Origin: an uncultured Kordiimonas sp.
GTDB taxonomy: Bacteria; Pseudomonadota; Alphaproteobacteria; Sphingomonadales; Kordiimonadaceae
Direction: 5' to 3'
Length of the DNA stretch: 64,000 nucleotides
Assembly (NCBI GenBank): GCA_947492375.1
Contig: CANLMI010000001.1
Span: forward strand, 1 to 64,000
Shown here: in pieces, positions 10,651 through 56,715 of the stretch
How positions within the stretch are numbered: position 1 is the first letter of the stretch
How the letters are laid out: each line of letters starts with the position of its first letter
Notes under the pieces: generated by a model
Database searches by the model: none
What the model was told of the DNA's origin: nothing
The model's input: the letters and a program-made list of their open reading frames with translations, nothing else
Program-made: the position numbers and the translations under genes

Positions 10651-12792
10651 TTACGGTGCTTCGCTGATCGCAAGTCTGCCGGATAAATTAGGGTTGAGCG
10701 TTTCAATAACAGTCATGAAATGCGCTTCACGGTATTCCTGTTTCCAAAGCAGGTTGGCAATTTCCTTGGCGCGCGCCTCGTTTCCCAGAAGCATATGTGC
10801 CTCCATCAAGGCTGATTTGGTGCGCGGGTGGATGACATCGATTTTGTGATCATATAGATCGATCACCTTTTGCCACTGCTTTTTTGCTCGGTCAGTTTGC
10901 TTGTTTTTTTCAAGGGTTTTGCCGTAGAGCACGAGCATTTGTGAACGGAAATTTTTAGCGTCAATCATCGTGAGGTATGCCTCAGGCGATTGTTCTATTG
11001 CGATTAAAATAGATGCCAGATGACTACTAATAGATGCTGGATCAACATCCATTGCGTAATCATACAGCGCTTTGGCAAGGTGTGTATTGTAATAAAAACT
11101 CTTTCTGTATGTTCTTGATGGTTCTTGACTGTAGAGTTCTGCTGAGTCATTCACCGCAATGTCGAGAACTTCTTTGGCACTGTCATATTCATCGGTAGCG
11201 ACATATGTTTGCGCGAGGAAAGCGCGTGCTCGAGCGCTTTGTTCAATGGCGGTGTAGTTCGGATTTATAAGGTCTTTATTTAGATTTTGTGAGCGTATGA
11301 TGGCGCTTTTAAAATGTGTGATTGCCGCATTCGTATCACCTGTTAATACTTCGGTTTCCGCAAGCCATAATGTTGAGCGTGCTTCCATCAATCGCCGGGT
11401 TTCGTTTTTAGGTCCGCGTGACAAAGATGTACGATAGATCGAATGCCCGGTTTTTCTGGAATGTAATGCCTTTGACAATGGATGCAATATTTCTTGGGCT
11501 CTCGATAAATGGTAATAGCCGCCGCCATCACTTGCCGCATATAGATCATTTTTATCGTCTCTTGAACTTAAGATGCTTTGAGCTTTAAGTCTAAGCTCCA
11601 GCCCCTTTGTAAATTCATCTAATGCCTTTACCGGGTCTTGGTTGAACTCCAAATCTTGTTCGGCCGAATATATGTAAGAATTTGATAGTTCGCTTATAAT
11701 GTAAACATTATGCGGATTTTTTTCATGCCCAGATTCTGCAATTTGACGATGTATCAAAAGTATTTCTTGTGCTTTATTATGATCGCCGATTTCCGTATAT
11801 GTATCAGCGTTTAGAAAAATTAAATATGCAATTTGCGCTAATACAATGGGATCAATATTATCTTGCGATTGAAGAAGAGTTATCTGATCATCAATCATTG
11901 GTTCGAGAAAGTCTAAAATTTCATCAAAGCGATTTTGATTCTCATATAGTTGTGCGATCTGTCCAATTGCGTGATTACGTTGAATGAGCAGCTCTGACGA
12001 CATTTCCAGAATGTTATCACCTTTGAGGCTATCAACGAGTTTTTCAGCGATTTTGAGCCGATCAATATTGTAAAATTTACTGCCTAAAACTTCTTCGCCC
12101 ATAAACCAAATGAGTTCATTGGATTGCGTTAACTCTTCTTGAGCTTTGCGCCTAGCTATATCAGCTTCCTTCCGAGCTATATTCGCTTCAATGGCAAGGG
12201 CGCTTATGATGCTGATAATAGCTATCGCGGCAATGCCAGCTAGGGCGTATTTCTTCTGCCGCCTCGCGCTATCGCGGATGATAAGATCGCTGAGTTTTAC
12301 ATTTAATACACCGGCTGCGATTTTGAGCATGGCATTATGCTTGCCATCACCGCCCTTACGAGCGTCTACAGCAAGGGGCTCAATGTACCCTTCTTGATCT
12401 TTACCTATCAAAATTGATGGTGGAAAACACTCAGTGTTATCACTGCTGCCGGGCTCGCCGCTAACAATAAAACATAGTATATTCCGCTTGTTTTTTAATC
12501 GTTTGAATTCTGTGATCTCTTCTTGAACACGTTCTGATTTTGCTGAATGCGGTGAGCAGATAACAATTAGATTGTCACTTGCACGAAGGGCATCGAATAT
12601 TTCCTCTTGAATGCTGTCTGAAGCAGGGAGCTCTTCACGGTCACGGAAGATAGGGCTTAGGCTATCAGGTGTATTGCCCGAGCGCGCCATTAGATATTTG
12701 GGTATTTTATAGCTTTCTAGCGCATTTAAGAGCCATTTGGCCCATTTTGCATCTTGGTGGCTATAACTAATGAACGCTTTGTATTTAGGCAC
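10651..12792 (-). CDS. TIR-TM-TPR protein 1
   Basis: The 713-aa protein has a cytoplasmic TIR_2 domain (about 3-125: YKAFISYSH, IFRDREELPAS, LIVICSPHSAKS), a conserved post-TIR helical element (EPLAVDARKGGDGK to LIIRDSARRQKK, about 138-180), a TM helix (about 181-201), a short coiled coil and then about 500 residues of TPR-like helices. TIR domains bind or hydrolyse NAD or act as adaptors. Here the Trp of the bacterial WxxxE motif is Arg88 while Glu92 remains, so NADase activity is uncertain. Positive residues before the TM helix suggest TIR inside and TPR outside. The start is a GTG with a weak SD. It belongs with the genes at 32612 and 51386, but has no obvious partner gene. Confidence 0.85.
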   Translation of the reverse strand: MPKYKAFISYSHQDAKWAKWLLNALESYKIPKYLMARSGNTPDSLSPIFRDREELPASDSIQEEIFDALRASDNLIVICSPHSAKSERVQEEITEFKRLKNKRNILCFIVSGEPGSSDNTECFPPSILIGKDQEGYIEPLAVDARKGGDGKHNAMLKIAAGVLNVKLSDLIIRDSARRQKKYALAGIAAIAIISIISALAIEANIARKEADIARRKAQEELTQSNELIWFMGEEVLGSKFYNIDRLKIAEKLVDSLKGDNILEMSSELLIQRNHAIGQIAQLYENQNRFDEILDFLEPMIDDQITLLQSQDNIDPIVLAQIAYLIFLNADTYTEIGDHNKAQEILLIHRQIAESGHEKNPHNVYIISELSNSYIYSAEQDLEFNQDPVKALDEFTKGLELRLKAQSILSSRDDKNDLYAASDGGGYYHLSRAQEILHPLSKALHSRKTGHSIYRTSLSRGPKNETRRLMEARSTLWLAETEVLTGDTNAAITHFKSAIIRSQNLNKDLINPNYTAIEQSARARAFLAQTYVATDEYDSAKEVLDIAVNDSAELYSQEPSRTYRKSFYYNTHLAKALYDYAMDVDPASISSHLASILIAIEQSPEAYLTMIDAKNFRSQMLVLYGKTLEKNKQTDRAKKQWQKVIDLYDHKIDVIHPRTKSALMEAHMLLGNEARAKEIANLLWKQEYREAHFMTVIETLNPNLSGRLAISEAP

Positions 12793-12883
12793 AAATTAAC
12801 TCGGTAAATTTAACGCCGCACATAATCATACCATATGACCATATTGCTATTTTACGGGGCTGATTGTTATAGATAATGGTGTG

Positions 12884-32547: not shown

Positions 32548-32611
32548 TATATCGAAGTCGTATATCGACGTTTCAGCGAGTTTTGTTTTGAATGAATGAG
32601 TAAAGATTTCG

Positions 32612-34837
32612 GTGCCTGCGGATAAAAATTTTAAGTATAAAGCCTTTATGAGTTACAGCCACAAAGACCGCATCTGGTCCGAATGGCTTCATAAAAAACT
32701 CGAAGGTTACCGCCTGCCGAAAGCCTTGCGTCAAAATCGATTAGATGCGGGGTTGGATGCAGGTAAGCTCAATCCGATTTTTCGTGACCGTGAGGAATTG
32801 CCAGCTCATGAAAATATGACTGATAAAATTTTGGAGGCAATTAAAGCATCTGAGTTTTTGGTGGTTGTGTGTTCGCCTCATGCTGTGAAGTCATTAATGG
32901 TGAATGAGGAAATTCGAGAGTTTCGAAGGCTAAACGGGAATAAAAATATTCTGTGTTTGATCACATCCGGGGAACCGAATGTTTTCAACGTAAATTCGCT
33001 CGATAAAGATGGTGAATTACTGAAACTCTCTGATGATGCATGTTTTCCTTCTGCATTATTTGAAACCAGTGTTCAGCATATTGGATTGCCTGATCAGCCA
33101 TCAGACCCGTTGGCCGCAGACGTAAGACCTGAGGGCGACGGCAAGCGAAACGCATACCTAAAAATTGCTGCCGGGGTGCTCGGCGTAAATCTGGGTGAGT
33201 TGGTGCGCCGTGATTTTGTTAAACGACAACGACAAATAACTGCGGCACTTTTGTTGTCGGTTGGTATTTCCGGGGCAATGGGTTGGCTCGCGTGGACGGC
33301 AATCAATGAGAGTAAACGCGCTGAAGAGCAACAAATACAAGCGGAACAATTCGCTAACTATTTCGCTGAAATTTTATATACTGAAGTGCCAAAGACAGGC
33401 CGGTATGACCTTATGCATGGGGTGGTAAGACGACTCCGTGAATACTACGACAACCTTGAAGTTTCCTCGTTAAACAATTTGTACAGAAAAGGTTGGGCCT
33501 ATAATAGAATTGGACATATTCTTAACACTCATGATCAACGTCAGGATTATACAGCATTACAACTCGAAGCAATTAACATTGCTAATGTGTTGGTGGAAGA
33601 CGATCCAGATAACATTGATTATCTCTATTTAAAGGCAAAATCTCATGGTTCGATGGCGCAGACGATTACTTGGCGAGGGCAACCTGAGCAGGCAATTGAG
33701 CATGGATTAATAGAAAAGAGAGTGTTGCATCAGTTACTCCAGAAAGAACCTGTCAATGTTGAGTGGTTAGAAAGTTTAGGGACATCGTATACTATCTCTG
33801 GTCTGTCTTATTTGCGAAATTTGGAGAATGTGGAAGCTGCGGAACAAGATTATCGTAAGGCATTAGAAATAAGATCGCGTGTGGCTAAGTTGCCAAACAA
33901 AACTATAATGGCGAATAATTTGCTGGGTGCTGCTTATGGAAATATATCGAAAGTGTACGGTGTAAAAGGACCTCAGCAGAGTATGGAGAAATATGCTATC
34001 TTTTCTGTCGATACGTTTCAAAAAAATTTCAATAATGATACCGCAAACCAAAATGCACGTTTTGTTCTTGCTAGAAGCGTAGAAGGTTTAGCTCATGCTA
34101 AGAACTTTGGCGGAGATATTGAAGCTACTTTTGAACATTATCTAATTTCGTATAATAGTTTAAAGTCTTTATTAAAGTTAAAACTTGGTAGCTCTCTTTG
34201 GGAGCACACATGTAATATAGTTGCTGTTGAATTTTCAAATGCTTTGATTTCAAATGGTCAGTACGATATCGCCCAAAATATATTGAAAGATCATGATACT
34301 TCCATCACTGCATATTATAATGGTGATGATGCAAAGAATTATCATATTTCTACTTTTTATTTTGCACGTCGCCTAGAAGCTTTGATGGCCTTCAAGAGGC
34401 GTAATTATATAGATGCTAAAGATAATTTGTTATTGATTCTGAATAAGTATGAAACAGATTTGACAGCTAACCTCTTGACTGTAAGTCGAATTGTTAATGC
34501 ATATACGTCAGCGTTTTTACTGTACGGCAAAATTCTGAGTACAGAGGGCGCACATGAGGAGGCGCGATCAGCTTGGCAAAAGGCTATCGATGTTTTTGGC
34601 AGTAATCTGCAATCCAAACGTATGGATATCCGTGCCAATATTGCGCAGATTTATATGGGGCTTGAAAATTATGAAAAGACACAAATGATTGTTGATGATT
34701 TACACGCACGTGGATACCGTGAAGTTAGTTATGTTCGCGCAATTGATGAAGCTATTAAAGCTGGGATAATTGTTGCCCCAAAAGGTTGGGTACGGGCGCC
34801 TGATCCTGTTGCAATTGACGTTGATTTAATATCATAA
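32612..34837 (+). CDS. TIR-TM-TPR protein 2
   Basis: The 741-aa protein has the same plan as those at 10651 and 51386: TIR_2 domain (about 8-130: YKAFMSYSHKD, IFRDREELPAH, LVVVCSPHAVKS), the post-TIR element DPLAADVRPEGDGKRN to LGELVRRDFVKRQ (about 165-206), a TM helix (about 209-230), a juxtamembrane helix ending GRYDLMHGVVRRLREYY and about 480 residues of TPR-like helices. In the WxxxE position Met96 replaces Trp and Glu100 is kept. It starts at GTG 32612 with only GAG as SD. G+C falls from 34/60 at 33121-33180 to 15/60 at 34141-34200, so the TPR half is far more AT-rich. It follows pgi by 64 bp, but functional linkage is unlikely. Role unknown; signalling or NAD hydrolysis possible. Confidence 0.87.
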   Translation: MPADKNFKYKAFMSYSHKDRIWSEWLHKKLEGYRLPKALRQNRLDAGLDAGKLNPIFRDREELPAHENMTDKILEAIKASEFLVVVCSPHAVKSLMVNEEIREFRRLNGNKNILCLITSGEPNVFNVNSLDKDGELLKLSDDACFPSALFETSVQHIGLPDQPSDPLAADVRPEGDGKRNAYLKIAAGVLGVNLGELVRRDFVKRQRQITAALLLSVGISGAMGWLAWTAINESKRAEEQQIQAEQFANYFAEILYTEVPKTGRYDLMHGVVRRLREYYDNLEVSSLNNLYRKGWAYNRIGHILNTHDQRQDYTALQLEAINIANVLVEDDPDNIDYLYLKAKSHGSMAQTITWRGQPEQAIEHGLIEKRVLHQLLQKEPVNVEWLESLGTSYTISGLSYLRNLENVEAAEQDYRKALEIRSRVAKLPNKTIMANNLLGAAYGNISKVYGVKGPQQSMEKYAIFSVDTFQKNFNNDTANQNARFVLARSVEGLAHAKNFGGDIEATFEHYLISYNSLKSLLKLKLGSSLWEHTCNIVAVEFSNALISNGQYDIAQNILKDHDTSITAYYNGDDAKNYHISTFYFARRLEALMAFKRRNYIDAKDNLLLILNKYETDLTANLLTVSRIVNAYTSAFLLYGKILSTEGAHEEARSAWQKAIDVFGSNLQSKRMDIRANIAQIYMGLENYEKTQMIVDDLHARGYREVSYVRAIDEAIKAGIIVAPKGWVRAPDPVAIDVDLIS

Positions 34838-51385: not shown

Positions 51386-53530
51386 GTGGGGCATAAATAT
51401 CATTACAAGGCTTTTATCAGCTATAGCCACCGCGATAAAAAGCATGGTGAATGGCTTCATAAACGATTGGAGCGTTATCGATTTCCAAAGGGGTTGATCG
51501 GTCAGCAAACCAAATTGGGGGTGGTGCCGGATAGGCTGGGCCGGATTTTCCGTGACCGGGATGAACTTCCTGCCTCTGATGATCTGACGAAGGAGGTGCG
51601 TAAAGCATTAGAACAATCAGAGTTTATGATTGTGCTTTGTTCGCCCAATGCTGCTTCGTCGCGCTGGGTTAACCGTGAAATTATCGATTTTAAGCGCGTA
51701 CGCGGCGATAAATATGTATTGCCAATCATTATTGACGGCGAACCTTTTGCCTCTGATCGCGGGGAACCAGAGGCCGAATGCTTTCCGCCTGCACTTCGCT
51801 TTAAGATTGGATCTGACGGGATGCTGTCTACCCAGCGTGCAGAGCCAATCGCAGCCGATATCAGGAAATTTGCTGATGGTGAAAAGCGCGCATTTATTAA
51901 ACTGGTTGCGGGGCTTGTCGGGGTTGGGCTTGATGAAATTATTGAGCGCGATTTAAGAAGAAAACATCAGATCGTGATGGGGGTCACAGCTTTGAGTATA
52001 CTCGCTGTGATAGTGATGGGATCATTAACGTATGAGGCTGTTATTGCCCGCCGTGAGGCTGAAGAGCAGCGAGCGCTTGCAGATGTTGCCCGCTCGCACG
52101 CAGAATTTCAGCGCGGTGAAGCGGAGGGCCTTATCGAATTTATGCTGACAGAGCTTAGGGACAAGCTCAAGTCGGTTGGACGACTGGACGCACTGGGAGC
52201 AGTGGGGGAGCGAGCCGTGGGCTACTACGGGGGCCAAATTCTGGAAACTATGCCGGACGCATCCGTTGGACGCAGCGCCCGCGCGTTTTTGATGCTGGGC
52301 GAGGTTCAAAATAGCCTTGGTAACAGCGAAGAAGCGCTCAAGATGTTCGAGCGCGCCGCCAAAGCAACCGGTGCCGCACTGGAGCGTGATCCTGAGAATT
52401 TTGACCGTTTGTTTGAACATATTCAGTCTGTTTTCTGGGTTGGTGAGATTTTTTATCTGCGAGGCGAGTTTGATAAGTCCCTACCTTATCGTGAGGTATA
52501 TTATGATTTAGCTGAGAGGCTGGAAAAGGTATCGTCTACTACTGCAAATGAGATTGTTGCAAAAGAAGAAATAGGTTTTGCTTTAAGTAATTTAGGGTCG
52601 TTATACATGGTTGGTTTTGAGGCCCCGGAACAAGCTCTTAAATATTTTCAGAAGGCTCAAAAATATTTTGAGGAGCTTTATTCAACCGATATACGTAATA
52701 CTAATTACTTATGGAATGTATCCGATGGCTTCGCTTGGATTGCAGATGCTTCTTTAAAAATGGGTGAGGTACAAGCGGCATATGAAAATCGATTGGCAGA
52801 GAATGATATTCTTAATCGGTTTTTAGAAAAAAATCCGCTTAATAAACGCATCGAGGCTGATTCTATTTTTGCTCGGTTTATGGTTGCTCGATTACGTCAT
52901 TGTATTTTGTTTACTGATGTGATCTCAGATGTGAAACAGATTGAAAAAGTTGCACTTAAACTCGTCGCATATGATGAAAGTAATCAAATTTGGAATGAGG
53001 ACTTGTTGTCTTTACAGTTGTTTTTAGTTTCACAGCTATTGGAGGAAAGCAAAGAACAAGAAGCTTCTATTTTATTTGATAAGTTATCAAAATTAATCCT
53101 CTCTAATAATAAATTTAATGCTAATAACAGTTCAATATCAAAGAGTATAGAAATTGCTAGAAGTCTTTTGCAGCTGAGGTTTGATTACACTAATCTAACA
53201 AATGCAGCCAATTTACGAAAATATATTAAGTATGTTCGAACAATTCTTGACGATTATAAAGATCAGTTGAGCGATAGAGAGCTTAGTAGGATTGTACAAT
53301 CTATAGTGTATTTTTCGGATGCATTGGTAACTCAAAATAAATCAAGCGAAGGTTATGAGTTGGTGGAATGGGCCATAGAGGCGGCCGATGATTTGGGGTA
53401 TTTTGAGCCGGAATTTCCGTTAATGAAATATCGACTTCTAACAAAATTAGATGAAATAGATAAGGCAAGAAAAATTGCTCAAGAACTGATTAGAGCAGGT
53501 TATTCCAATAAACATTTTATAGTAAATTAA
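51386..53530 (+). CDS. TIR-TM-TPR protein 3, first gene of the cyclase operon
   Basis: The 714-aa protein has a TIR_2 domain (about 6-125: YKAFISYSHRD, IFRDRDELPAS, MIVLCSPNAASSRW), the post-TIR element EPIAADIRKFADGEKR to LDEIIERDLRRKHQ (about 153-195), a TM helix (about 196-218), a coiled coil, the juxtamembrane helix EFMLTELRDKLKSVGRLDAL (about 251-270) and TPR-like repeats (about 295-700). It alone keeps the full WxxxE motif (Trp94, Glu98), so it is the best NADase candidate of the three. GTG 51386 has AAGGG seven bases upstream. G+C falls from 72/120 at 52141-52260 to 31/120 at 53041-53160. The next gene starts 15 bp downstream, so it is operonic with the unknown protein and the cyclase. 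Confidence 0.9.
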   Translation: MGHKYHYKAFISYSHRDKKHGEWLHKRLERYRFPKGLIGQQTKLGVVPDRLGRIFRDRDELPASDDLTKEVRKALEQSEFMIVLCSPNAASSRWVNREIIDFKRVRGDKYVLPIIIDGEPFASDRGEPEAECFPPALRFKIGSDGMLSTQRAEPIAADIRKFADGEKRAFIKLVAGLVGVGLDEIIERDLRRKHQIVMGVTALSILAVIVMGSLTYEAVIARREAEEQRALADVARSHAEFQRGEAEGLIEFMLTELRDKLKSVGRLDALGAVGERAVGYYGGQILETMPDASVGRSARAFLMLGEVQNSLGNSEEALKMFERAAKATGAALERDPENFDRLFEHIQSVFWVGEIFYLRGEFDKSLPYREVYYDLAERLEKVSSTTANEIVAKEEIGFALSNLGSLYMVGFEAPEQALKYFQKAQKYFEELYSTDIRNTNYLWNVSDGFAWIADASLKMGEVQAAYENRLAENDILNRFLEKNPLNKRIEADSIFARFMVARLRHCILFTDVISDVKQIEKVALKLVAYDESNQIWNEDLLSLQLFLVSQLLEESKEQEASILFDKLSKLILSNNKFNANNSSISKSIEIARSLLQLRFDYTNLTNAANLRKYIKYVRTILDDYKDQLSDRELSRIVQSIVYFSDALVTQNKSSEGYELVEWAIEAADDLGYFEPEFPLMKYRLLTKLDEIDKARKIAQELIRAGYSNKHFIVN

Positions 53531-53545
53531 ATTTAGGAGATATCA

Positions 53546-54112
53546 GTGGCTGGAAATATTCAATTAAGTACAGTTTTGGTTGGGCTTGAGGCACACGCAA
53601 ACGGCGTTGATTTTAATATCAATGTTAATACAATGCCTGTTTCGACTTTCGAAGGCATATTAAAGCCTGTTTTAGAAAGTGAATTCGGAGAGGACGCTGC
53701 AGCTTCGATGCTGGCTAATTATAGTCCAGGTGGTATGCCAAAACCAGCTTCAGGTTCTCCTTTTGACGTCGTGGCCTATGGCCCTACATATTTTTTATAT
53801 GCTATCGATAAGACCACTGCTGCCAACTGGCGTTTTCGAGAAGGTGGCGCGGATTATGTAACAATGTGTCGGAAATCTGATTCTAAAATACCTTCAAATA
53901 TGTTTAAGAAGAACTTTAACGCTCCAGAAGTCATAGACCGCGATGGTTTAGGTGTGTTGATGTTTGGTGTCTACGATTGTTGTGCAAGTTACGACAAACC
54001 ACCATATACTAATCCTAAATTCTCGTTTGATTTCGATATTTTCATGTCTGTGAGTCAAAAGGGATTGGTAACAGAAATCACTATAGACCCTAAGACTGAT
54101 AATCGTGGATAA
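53546..54112 (+). CDS. Unknown protein between the TIR and cyclase genes
   Basis: Protein of 188 aa that I do not recognise. It is soluble, with no signal peptide, moderately Cys- and Tyr-rich, and appears to be mixed alpha/beta: a helix with FEGILKPVLESEFGEDAAAS (about 35-54), the strand-rich VAYGPTYFLYAIDKTTAANW (about 74-93), GVLMFGVYDCCASYDKPPY (about 135-153) and a hydrophobic FSFDFDIFMSV strand near 158-168. GTG 53546 has TAGGAG six to seven bases upstream. Its place between a TIR protein and a nucleotidyl cyclase, with short gaps on both sides, suggests it belongs to the same system as sensor, inhibitor or effector. None of these roles is demonstrated. Confidence 0.75.
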   Translation: MAGNIQLSTVLVGLEAHANGVDFNINVNTMPVSTFEGILKPVLESEFGEDAAASMLANYSPGGMPKPASGSPFDVVAYGPTYFLYAIDKTTAANWRFREGGADYVTMCRKSDSKIPSNMFKKNFNAPEVIDRDGLGVLMFGVYDCCASYDKPPYTNPKFSFDFDIFMSVSQKGLVTEITIDPKTDNRG

Positions 54113-54158
54113 ACACTCTATTTGAGATAGTTCCCTTAGCGAAAACAGGAAATAATCT

Positions 54159-55928
54159 TTGAAAAACACAATTCTGTCCCTGTTGCGTGCGGGAGCGCTG
54201 AATGAGGCCGAGAAGGAATATATCCGCCTCGGCCTTGACCGTGTCACGGATGACGAAGACACGATCGCGCTTGGGGGCAGAATTTTAAAAAGCCGGGCGC
54301 TTGAGCAAACAGGCGCTGCACAGCGTGATCTTGCCCTGAAATCCGCCGAAAAATATTATCAGGCTTACCGGGCAACGGATGGCACATATTCAGGCATTAA
54401 TACGGCTGCTATGTTCGCGCTGGCGGGGGATATGGTGGCAGCGCGTAATATTGCGCAAACTATTTTGGATAAAACTGGCAACTATAGCCCCAAACCGGGT
54501 GAAGATGCCTATTATCATATGGCAACGGTGGCAGAGGCGCATCTGATCCTTGGTGATCTGGTGATGGCAAAGGCAGCGCTCCGGGACGCGATTGACCTTG
54601 ATCCCGGCAATTATGATGCGCGTGCAACGACAGTGCGCCAGTTCGAGATGTTATCACTGGCAATAGGTGGCAGTGTTACAGAGGAACAGCCAAATAATAC
54701 ATTTGGTAATGTTTCCGGTAATAAACCTAATAATATATCCGATGGTAAAAAAGTAACTGAAGGCTTTTCACTTGAGTGGCTTGATGCATACCGCCCACCC
54801 AAGGCGATCCATTTTGCCGGGCATATGTTTCATGATCGTGCCGGCAATGTGGGCGAGCGCCGTGACATCGAAGAGGCGGTGGACGTTTTCATTGCAGATC
54901 ATAAAGTAGGGTGCGCCTTTGGCTGTTTGGCTGCTGGGTCAGATATTATAATTGCGGAAAAAATTCTGGCCTATGGTGCTGAGCTACATGTGGTGTTGCC
55001 ATGCCCTGAGACGTATTTTGTCGAGACCTCGATCTTACCTTTCGGGGATGAGTGGCTTGATCGGTTTTATGCCTGTTTGGCGGCGGCTAAGTCTGTTCGC
55101 TACACATCATATGATACAGAGTTGCCTGATGATTTGGGCTTGTCATTTGCAAGCGAAGTGGCGATGGGGTTGGCGGTTCTTAAAAGCGAGCGGTTAGCCA
55201 CCTCGGTAGTGCAGTTATTGATATGGGACGGTAAGCCCGCGCGTGGATTGGCTGGCACTGCAAGAGACGCTGCGATTTGGCATAAAACCAACCGTGATCA
55301 GGTTATTATTCCTTTTCCGCTTGAGCGGCCTGTACATCAAAAGGCAGTTGCAAGCGAAGGGGGTGCTGATACGCGCGCACGTACCATGCAGGCCATGTTA
55401 TTCACTGATGTCAGGGGGTTCAGTGGCCTGATGGATAGTGAAATTCCCGCCTTTATGCAGCATGTGCTTAAGCCGCTTGCAGATGCGTGTAAAAAAGAAG
55501 AGCAGGGTATTAATTTTCTGAATACTTGGGGTGATGGGCTTTTTATTACATTTAATAGTGTCGTAGAGGCCGCGAAAGTGGCGCTTGAATTACAAAAAGT
55601 CTTTCAGGCGATTGATTTTGAGCGCGCTGGCTTGCCCGACAGGTTAGCAATTCGGATTGGTGGCCATTACGGCCCTGTGCATGAACTTGAAGATCCTTTT
55701 TCGGGGCAGCGCGGTGTTTTGGGGGCGCAGGTAACTATCGCCGCCAAAATAGAGCCGGTTACAGCGCCGGGTTCGGTTTATGTGAGCGAACCTTTTGCCT
55801 GTGTATTAGCCGTGCAGGCATCAGGTGACTATATTGCGGAACAGATGCAGCATACTGTTCGCTTGCATAAAAGCGCACAGGCAGTTGCCTTGTTTAATCT
55901 CAGGGCAAAGGGCGTGAGGGGTTCCTGA
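54159..55928 (+). CDS. TPR-SLOG-class III nucleotidyl cyclase
   Basis: Protein of 589 aa. TPR-like helices (about 20-165) resemble the TRAFs-binding type; a SLOG/Rossmann-like nucleotide-binding domain follows (about 213-385; HFAGHMFHDRA, LAAGSDIIIAEKILAYGAEL, VVLPCPET), then a class III cyclase domain (about 408-585). Metal-binding Asp417 (LFTDVRGFS) and Asp459 (TWGDGLF) are present. The usual adenine-selecting Lys is Asn455, and the transition-state Asn/Arg pair aligns with Thr526 and Lys530, so the product may not be cAMP. TTG 54159 has AGGAA seven bases upstream. It is the last gene of the TIR operon and faces a Crp/Fnr gene. The fold assignments are from motif reading only. Confidence 0.85.
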   Translation: MKNTILSLLRAGALNEAEKEYIRLGLDRVTDDEDTIALGGRILKSRALEQTGAAQRDLALKSAEKYYQAYRATDGTYSGINTAAMFALAGDMVAARNIAQTILDKTGNYSPKPGEDAYYHMATVAEAHLILGDLVMAKAALRDAIDLDPGNYDARATTVRQFEMLSLAIGGSVTEEQPNNTFGNVSGNKPNNISDGKKVTEGFSLEWLDAYRPPKAIHFAGHMFHDRAGNVGERRDIEEAVDVFIADHKVGCAFGCLAAGSDIIIAEKILAYGAELHVVLPCPETYFVETSILPFGDEWLDRFYACLAAAKSVRYTSYDTELPDDLGLSFASEVAMGLAVLKSERLATSVVQLLIWDGKPARGLAGTARDAAIWHKTNRDQVIIPFPLERPVHQKAVASEGGADTRARTMQAMLFTDVRGFSGLMDSEIPAFMQHVLKPLADACKKEEQGINFLNTWGDGLFITFNSVVEAAKVALELQKVFQAIDFERAGLPDRLAIRIGGHYGPVHELEDPFSGQRGVLGAQVTIAAKIEPVTAPGSVYVSEPFACVLAVQASGDYIAEQMQHTVRLHKSAQAVALFNLRAKGVRGS

Positions 55929-56001: not shown

Positions 56002-56715
56002 TTACAGCAGCAATTCTTTGAGGCGTTCAGGCGCGATAATCTGAATTTGTTTACCATCCACCTTAACTATGCCCCTGTGTTGCAGGTCACTGATTGCCCG
56101 GGATACAGTCTCTCGGGTACTATGGATTTTTTGGGCAATGCGTGTTTTATGCGGCATTTTTTCAATTGTCAGTGTTTTGAGTGAATTGCTTGATTGCGCC
56201 ATTCGAAGCAGCTCTGCATAAACGCGGCCATTTGCCGACATTGCTGACAGTTCATACATTCGCATTGTCGTATGTTTGACCCGGCTGGTCAGAACTTGGG
56301 CCATCTTGATCCCAAGCATACCAAACTCGGCCATGATGGCCTTGTAAGTTTCCGCCGAGAAACTGGCAACTGTTACCTTGGTTGATGAATAAATACTGGC
56401 GCTACGCTCATTCAGGCCAAATGCTGCCATTTCACCGAATATTGTACCACCCGAAAAACCATCTAACCATATTTCATGGCCATCTGACGACATAAGGGCT
56501 GCATGTGCCCTGCCTTTCAATAGATAATAGATATCATTACCTGTATCATCTTGTGACAGGATCATGGTTTTTGATGGAATATTTCTGATAGTTGCGGCGG
56601 CTTCGATTCTTTCTAATAGTGCTGGATCAGAGCCGAAAAAAAGTTCAAATTCTGACCGGAAAGCCTCATTTGATTTTTGTGATGGTGTCCCCAATAGTGA
56701 TATAGTGTCATGCAT
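56002..56715 (-). CDS. Crp/Fnr-family regulator with intact cyclic-nucleotide motif
   Basis: Transcription factor of 237 aa: cyclic-nucleotide-binding domain (about 25-145) and winged helix (about 160-230). The phosphate-binding cassette FGEMAAFGLNERSAS (about 92-106) keeps the Gly-Glu and Arg-Ser pattern of cNMP-binding Crp proteins, and no Fe-S Cys cluster as in Fnr is present. The recognition helix is HSTRETVSRAISDLQHRG. It converges on the cyclase gene with 73 bp between stops. It is the natural candidate receptor for the neighbour's product, although that pairing is inferred from position. Confidence 0.9.
   Translation of the reverse strand: MHDTISLLGTPSQKSNEAFRSEFELFFGSDPALLERIEAAATIRNIPSKTMILSQDDTGNDIYYLLKGRAHAALMSSDGHEIWLDGFSGGTIFGEMAAFGLNERSASIYSSTKVTVASFSAETYKAIMAEFGMLGIKMAQVLTSRVKHTTMRMYELSAMSANGRVYAELLRMAQSSNSLKTLTIEKMPHKTRIAQKIHSTRETVSRAISDLQHRGIVKVDGKQIQIIAPERLKELLL

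Follow-up and report, generated by a model that had tools for sequence, protein, structure and literature searches.

The question raised by this locus is whether a class III nucleotidyl cyclase domain with unusual residues at several active-site positions is a working enzyme and, if so, what it makes. A sequence-only reading of the window (the whole 64,000-nucleotide stretch analyzed here) had held that the domain keeps both metal-binding Asp residues and lacks the residues that usually select adenine and stabilize the transition state. It had suggested that the product could be another cyclic nucleotide or that the domain could be a receptor, and had proposed a family-wide alignment as a check. 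Comparison with relatives, solved cyclases and neighboring genes bears this reading out in part. The protein is probably a working class III cyclase of a TPR-S/SLOG/cyclase family, making the ligand of the convergent CRP-type regulator encoded next to it, with cAMP as the most likely identity of that ligand. The changes in the base pocket would then be mostly family traits, and the replacement of Arg530 by Lys would be a tolerated, genus-level variant.

Architecture of the Cyclase Protein

The features of the locus are collected in Table 1. An AlphaFold model of the cyclase protein, built on 55 family sequences, has a pLDDT of 91, and a fold search with its cyclase domain returned CyaB (3r5g, Z 22.3), Cya2 (2w01, Z 21.3) and Ma1120 (4wp9, Z 20.9). 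The catalytic-domain profile, the fold and both metal Asp residues (D417 and D459) are all found, and the transition-state Arg is replaced by K530. The protein is thus a variant within the class III cyclase fold family, a membership that in itself implies no activity. It has neither the Lys/Asp base pair of adenylyl cyclases (N455 and G519 stand there) nor, at N455, the Glu of guanylyl cyclases, which occurs at this position in 6 of 110 relatives.

Table 1. Coordinates of the cassette, of the domains of the cyclase protein and of its active-site codons.
Feature	Position	Strand	Remarks
TIR, hydrophobic (membrane-like) segment and TPR protein, 714 aa, Glu98	51386..53530	+	PF13676 1.8e-14 plus TPR matches; segment read by eye
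Small protein, 188 aa, IDP motif near C-terminus	53546..54112	+	motif common to most small genes here in relatives
TPR-S/SLOG/class III cyclase protein, 589 aa, TTG start	54159..55928	+	in-frame stop 54153-54155
TPR-S domain (PF20308), aa 5-85	54171..54413	+	37.2 bits vs cut-off 27.6; profile positions 25-101 only
SLOG domain, aa 205-385, GxD signature G260-S261-D262	54771..55313	+	fold match YpsA 2nx2, DprA 3uqz
Class III nucleotidyl cyclase domain, aa 405-585	55371..55913	+	PF00211 29.3 bits vs cut-off 21.9
D417, first metal Asp	55407..55409	+	D in 94/94 readable domains, a set not chosen by this residue
N455, canonical adenine-binding Lys position	55521..55523	+	family N 97/110 (E 6, D 3, K 2, R 1, A 1)
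W457, near-invariant, two before second metal Asp	55527..55529	+	109/110
D459, second metal Asp	55533..55535	+	D in 94/94 readable domains
G519, canonical adenine-binding Asp position	55713..55715	+	family column variable (counts in text)
T526, canonical Asn position	55734..55736	+	family S 47, T 35, N 13, A 7, V 6, I 1, gap 1
K530, transition-state Arg position	55746..55748	+	family R 107, K 2, gap 1
K571, conserved C-terminal Lys	55869..55871	+	K in 101/110
CRP-type regulator (cNMP_binding + HTH_Crp_2), G71 E72 R82 S83 T127 T128	56002..56715	-	residues at E. coli pocket positions

The N-terminal domain belongs to TPR-S by a profile match over the cut-off, a match that begins at profile position 25. 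The frame of the gene opens right after a stop (54153-54161), and the open frames of several relatives extend about 55-70 residues farther upstream. The middle domain of the window copy matched no family in a Pfam search, and a link by sequence to solved structures was rejected, only two chance-level matches having been obtained; a fold search was therefore needed. Modeled alone (pLDDT 93.8), this domain has the SLOG fold, with YpsA (2nx2, Z 18.4) as its best match, followed by DprA (3uqz, Z 13.0), the TRPM2 chanzyme (Z 10.4) and LOG (Z 10.3). The fold and the GxD/E motif together place it among YpsA-like SLOG domains; G260 and D262 are invariant in 55 aligned family rows, and residues 260-262 (G-S-D) agree with the motif of the YpsA clade as published (PMC6459960).

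Gene Neighborhood and Genome Context

The TIR-TPR gene and the small gene lie upstream of the cyclase gene, and the CRP-type gene lies downstream in convergent orientation. The locus is syntenic in a same-genus genome, with the same order between relatives of the same flanking genes. A mobile or phage origin was considered and rejected, given this synteny in the sister species and the lack of any match in 50,697 phage records. Matches to the cyclase protein were found in 56 plasmid records; in only 2 of them is 80% or more of the query covered, the identity then being 30%. Of the 49 distinct family genes from a pattern scan with 3.5 kb available on both sides, 21 have a TIR ORF within 3 kb and 14 have a CRP ORF no more than 250 bp away; both counts include two cyclase-decayed Hellea loci, and the CRP count also includes the split gene L091.

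The column of Glu98 in the TIR protein, presumably that of the TIR catalytic Glu, is Glu in all 29 TIR ORFs aligned there (30 were found). The window holds three TIR-TPR genes (10657-12795 on the minus strand, 32600-34834 and 51386-53530 on the plus strand), which are 17 to 20 kb apart, 27-39% alike over their aligned parts, and the only TIR_2 matches in the 3.94-Mb genome. The small protein belongs to no known family in the domain and defense-system searches. An IDP motif near the C-terminus is shared by 12 of the 14 small proteins encoded between TIR and cyclase genes (those of the window, L028, L029, L031, L033, L034, L043, L049, L057, L061 with two, and L064, with L030 and L032 as the exceptions). 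It is also present in the frames of L137 and L138.

The genome (rated 100% complete, in 23 contigs) has the window cyclase as its only PF00211 match. It also has one CYTH gene and four CNBD genes, and no match to a class I adenylate cyclase. It belongs to the family of Kordiimonas: in G395, a genome of the same family, the CRP is identical to that of Kordiimonas laminariae throughout its final 200 residues.

Active-Site Residues across the Family

The family was assembled from whole-genome searches and one pattern scan (473 relatives, 80 kept), and the merging of identical SLOG sequences gave 147 family genes. Both metal Asp residues are present in 110 of these, the set used for the column counts. 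The other 37 are without one or both and comprise 31 genes of the CRP comparison described below, together with L091, L015, L150, L160, L163 and one L196 ORF.

In the alignment to the solved cyclase 3mr7, Lys, Asp, Asn and Arg are the partners of N455, G519, T526 and K530, respectively, and the family profile compared with 3mr7 and with adenylyl cyclase 5 (8sl3) gave the same register of active-site columns. These alignments confirm the positions that the sequence-only reading had given to the same residues. Its suggestion that Asn at the Lys position may be a family trait was also confirmed by the counts at column 455. The pattern scan used NTWGD and so is biased toward Asn455; among the 40 intact rows from outside it, N455 occurs in 36 and R530 in 38. 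Column 519 is variable (of 110 rows, N 44, T 28, G 12, L 8, S 7, A 6, E 2, I 1, V 1 and gap 1), and 82 of the 110 intact relatives carry Ser or Thr at column 526. Judged from these columns, Gly519 and Thr526 lie within the range of the family, and Lys530 is the single odd residue. K571 is conserved as well and may be the equivalent of the triphosphate Lys of class III cyclases.

Lys530 is confined to the window and to L109, a same-genus orthologue of 73% identity, Arg being present in 107 of the 109 readable intact rows. The L109 protein, from the one same-genus genome compared, also has Gly519 and Thr526, while Kordiimonas orthologues at about 50% identity have Arg530. A sequencing error as the source of K530 is ruled out by the Lys in L109. 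No natural Lys at the transition-state Arg position was found among the literature matches listed.

In the enzyme Rv0386, different residues occupy the base positions. The window domain is like CyaB, Cya2 and Ma1120 in fold, in both metal Asp residues and in the register of its active-site columns, but its first base position holds Asn in place of their Lys or Glu, its second holds Gly (a residue that Cya2 shares), and Lys replaces the transition-state Arg. The claim that the site lacks its usual residues was sound in that the residues truly differ, and overstated otherwise, since column 526 is mostly Ser or Thr, Ma1120 is an active adenylyl cyclase with Ala in place of the canonical Asn, and the guanylyl cyclase Cya2 has Gly at the place of Gly519 (PMC4215837). 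Among the residues flagged, only the change of Arg530 to Lys is odd, and both of the examined genomes of the genus carry it.

State of the Cyclase and of the Adjoining CRP Pocket

The regulator encoded downstream is a CRP by its PF00027 and PF13545 matches, both over cut-off, and by the residues G E R S T T at the pocket positions of E. coli CRP. It is the only one of the four CNBD genes of the genome with the whole pocket (GERSTT, versus GDYNQL, GERSKR and GERTAL), and this pocket is intact beside the cyclase in both the window and L109.

Relatives with a CRP close to the cyclase gene offer a wider comparison. Of the 147 family genes, 94 have no CRP within 250 bp, some of them lying near contig ends; L091 was dropped from the other 53 for its split reading frame, leaving a set of 52 in which the near-copies L028/L111, L141/L142 and L010/L013/L014 were kept. 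Where the cyclase is intact, every one of the 21 CRPs keeps Glu72, Arg82 and Thr127, and residue 128 is Thr in 17 and Ser in 4. Where the cyclase is decayed, all three are kept in 0 of 31: Arg82 is found in none, Glu72 in 4 and Thr127 in 1. In 8 of these 31 an Arg stands one column after 82, and the loop is shortened in 7 of the 8; the loss of Arg is alignment-dependent in those cases, which might instead represent a shifted Arg. The same 8 keep neither Glu72 nor Thr127. Decay of the cyclase domain in the same TPR-S/SLOG gene, in some cases with weak C-terminal traces left, was seen in two Hellea genomes and in f2, a family of the order to which the window belongs. A half-decayed cyclase was seen at L158 (G612), with the first metal Asp kept, the second changed to Gln and Arg at 455; the CRP beside it has Ser at 82.

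The output cyclase and the receptor pocket have decayed together in other lineages. The number of independent events behind the pattern is small. On a tree of the TPR-S and SLOG domains, cyclase state and Arg82 change twice each, and the starred branches force one change only; with only two joint changes, one of them on starred branches, a sign test of independent losses is unusable. A total of 49 CRPs from decayed and intact loci group apart from E. coli CRP and the other CNBD proteins of the window genome (SH-aLRT 83, with long outsider branches). Three f43 genomes (L010, L013 and L014) have a separate CRP, upstream and on the same strand, which also carries the full pocket, and this arrangement suggests a second coupling.

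Among genes with an adjoining CRP, the pocket may act as a reporter of cyclase activity: beside an intact cyclase, the regulator would be able to bind a cyclic nucleotide. Since the pocket is intact beside the window cyclase, we infer that this cyclase works despite Lys530. Further support comes from the fold match to adenylyl and guanylyl cyclases, from the window cyclase being the one PF00211 match in a genome that has no class I match, and from the synteny of the locus in the same-genus genome. Observations that count against that reading include the rarity of Lys530 (2 of 109), the two changes on the tree behind the joint loss, the presence of the CYTH gene in the genome, and the small number of intact cyclase genes that are paired with a CRP (21 of 110). 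The remaining 89 have none within 250 bp, some of their loci being near contig ends, and 15 such genes occur in f2 itself.

The same material bears on the idea that the domain is dead or nearly so and serves as a nucleotide-binding receptor, with K530 marking the onset of the decay that relatives show. Cyclase decay is real in the 31 CRP-adjoining genes, Arg530 is replaced only in the window and its sister species, and inactive cNMP-cyclase domains, proposed to bind nucleotides, have been described in other conflict systems (PMC7159879). Against this, the metal Asps, W457 and K571 are all kept, and both species have an intact CRP pocket, which none of the 31 decayed cases has. Moreover, between the window and L109, dN is 0.182 in the cyclase domain, 0.189 in TPR-S and 0.215 in SLOG (synonymous sites being saturated in the cyclase domain), values that show no weaker constraint on the cyclase domain than on the other two. 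The receptor proposed in the sequence-only reading is disfavored on these grounds, and we regard a dead domain as improbable, while giving it some weight in view of the inactive domains of other systems.

The Probable Product

For a working cyclase, the adjoining pocket is also a guide to the product. Thr or Ser at position 128 has been tied to cAMP recognition, with Glu serving for cGMP and Asn for cUMP (PMC11224242), and by this analogy the Thr-Thr pair of the neighboring CRP fits cAMP better than cGMP or cUMP. On the residues compared, cAMP is the likely product.

An active cyclase that makes cGMP, cCMP or cUMP could nonetheless be proposed, since neither canonical adenine-binding residue is present, N455 and G519 replacing Lys and Asp. 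Solved PycC enzymes select their base at the same places, D2-4 and D2-2 (R142/Q144 in EaPycC, K104 in AnPycC) (PMC11224242), and Cya2 shows that a guanylyl cyclase can have Gly at the second position. Guanylyl cyclases, though, have Glu at the Lys position (PMC4215837), where the window has Asn, and the Thr-Thr of the neighboring CRP is not the Glu of XC_0249 nor the Asn of PycTIR (PMC11224242). A CRP-type effector of R. centenum is reported to bind cGMP without the guanine diad, however, which makes a Thr/Ser pocket compatible with cGMP (PMC3770947). We consider a product other than cAMP unlikely; the earlier suggestion of another cyclic nucleotide is disfavored as regards a pyrimidine cyclase and leaves cGMP in particular as a possibility.

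A likeness to XC_0250/XC_0249 of Xanthomonas campestris can be drawn by description only: there too the gene of a TPR-bearing class III cyclase is linked to that of its CNBD receptor, but the product is cGMP and the receptor is a CNBD-GGDEF protein with Glu146 (PMC3770947).

Comparison with Pycsar

Pycsar systems, which pair PycC with PycTIR or PycTM, resemble the window locus in the class III cyclase fold, the non-canonical base residues and the nearby TIR gene. Could the cyclase then be a defense enzyme of the Pycsar type, with the adjacent TIR gene encoding its effector? The TIR protein at 51386-53530 has TIR and TPR matches and no Pfam cNMP-binding match, whereas a Pycsar effector carries a CNBD fused to TIR or TM, and the neighbor that does have a CNBD is a DNA-binding CRP. 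The cyclase protein also has no PADLOC match. Its base residues are different ones: N455 and W457, placed by their offset from the metal Asp, differ from the pyrimidine-selecting residues of EaPycC and AnPycC, and from those published for clades B, D and E in the available part of the same source (PMC11224242). W457, two residues before the second metal Asp, occupies the offset of the base-selecting Lys of AnPycC and Gln of EaPycC. No chain named PycC appeared among 60 of the 77 PDB matches of the cyclase profile or among 50 each in two further lists, an absence that proves nothing. Membership in Pycsar is, overall, highly improbable.

A Possible Relay from TIR to CRP

In the mechanism that we favor, the TPR-S and SLOG domains would sense a signal, which may be a product that the adjacent TIR protein derives from NAD; the sensed signal would turn on the cyclase; and the cyclic nucleotide would then bind the CRP at 56002-56715 and change transcription.

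A parallel to the first step is Thoeris, where the product of the TIR protein ThsB binds the SLOG domain of ThsA, a SIR2-SLOG protein (PMC10022894). Like Thoeris, the window has a TIR gene beside a gene for a SLOG-bearing protein, but its output domain is a cyclase, and the step from TIR to SLOG is a guess here. The window cyclase protein has no match to a SIR2-type NADase, the mark of ThsA, and so falls outside Thoeris. Longer flanks were read for three of the decayed loci (L089 and L106 of Hellea, and G244), and in each the SLOG gene still has a TIR gene next to it.

The SLOG domain itself is closest to the YpsA clade in fold and keeps the GxD/E motif. An A/G_cyclase is abbreviated among the YpsA contexts in the legend to Fig. 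1 of the paper on that clade, so a link between SLOG and cyclase is partly in print already; the available part of its text differs from the present work in giving no analysis of the cyclase active site and no CRP or TIR gene (PMC6459960). The literature matches listed (titles and the starts of abstracts, and without the 2015 SLOG survey cited in PMC6459960) held no description of a TIR / TPR-S-SLOG-cyclase / CRP cassette.

A relay from TIR through SLOG and cyclase to CRP seems reasonable on this arrangement. Its full two-messenger form, in which the TIR protein would turn an NAD-derived signal into a SLOG ligand, the cyclase, with Asn, Gly and Lys in its active site, would be activated by that ligand, and the CRP would be driven by the cyclic nucleotide, is put forward tentatively, with the doubt that attaches to such a chain.

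Significance

The concern over an odd active site is mostly answered by comparison with the family. Two points are still of interest: a Lys530 that is specific to the genus although the cyclase is otherwise constrained, and, in a cassette associated with TIR genes, the way in which the state of the cyclase goes with that of the CRP pocket. The family presents a cyclase with an Asn-based base pocket and one natural change from Arg to Lys at the transition-state position, and the state of the adjoining CRP pocket may provide a built-in reporter of its activity. If the relay is true, signaling by TIR and SLOG proteins would be joined to classical transcription control by a cyclic nucleotide within one cassette.
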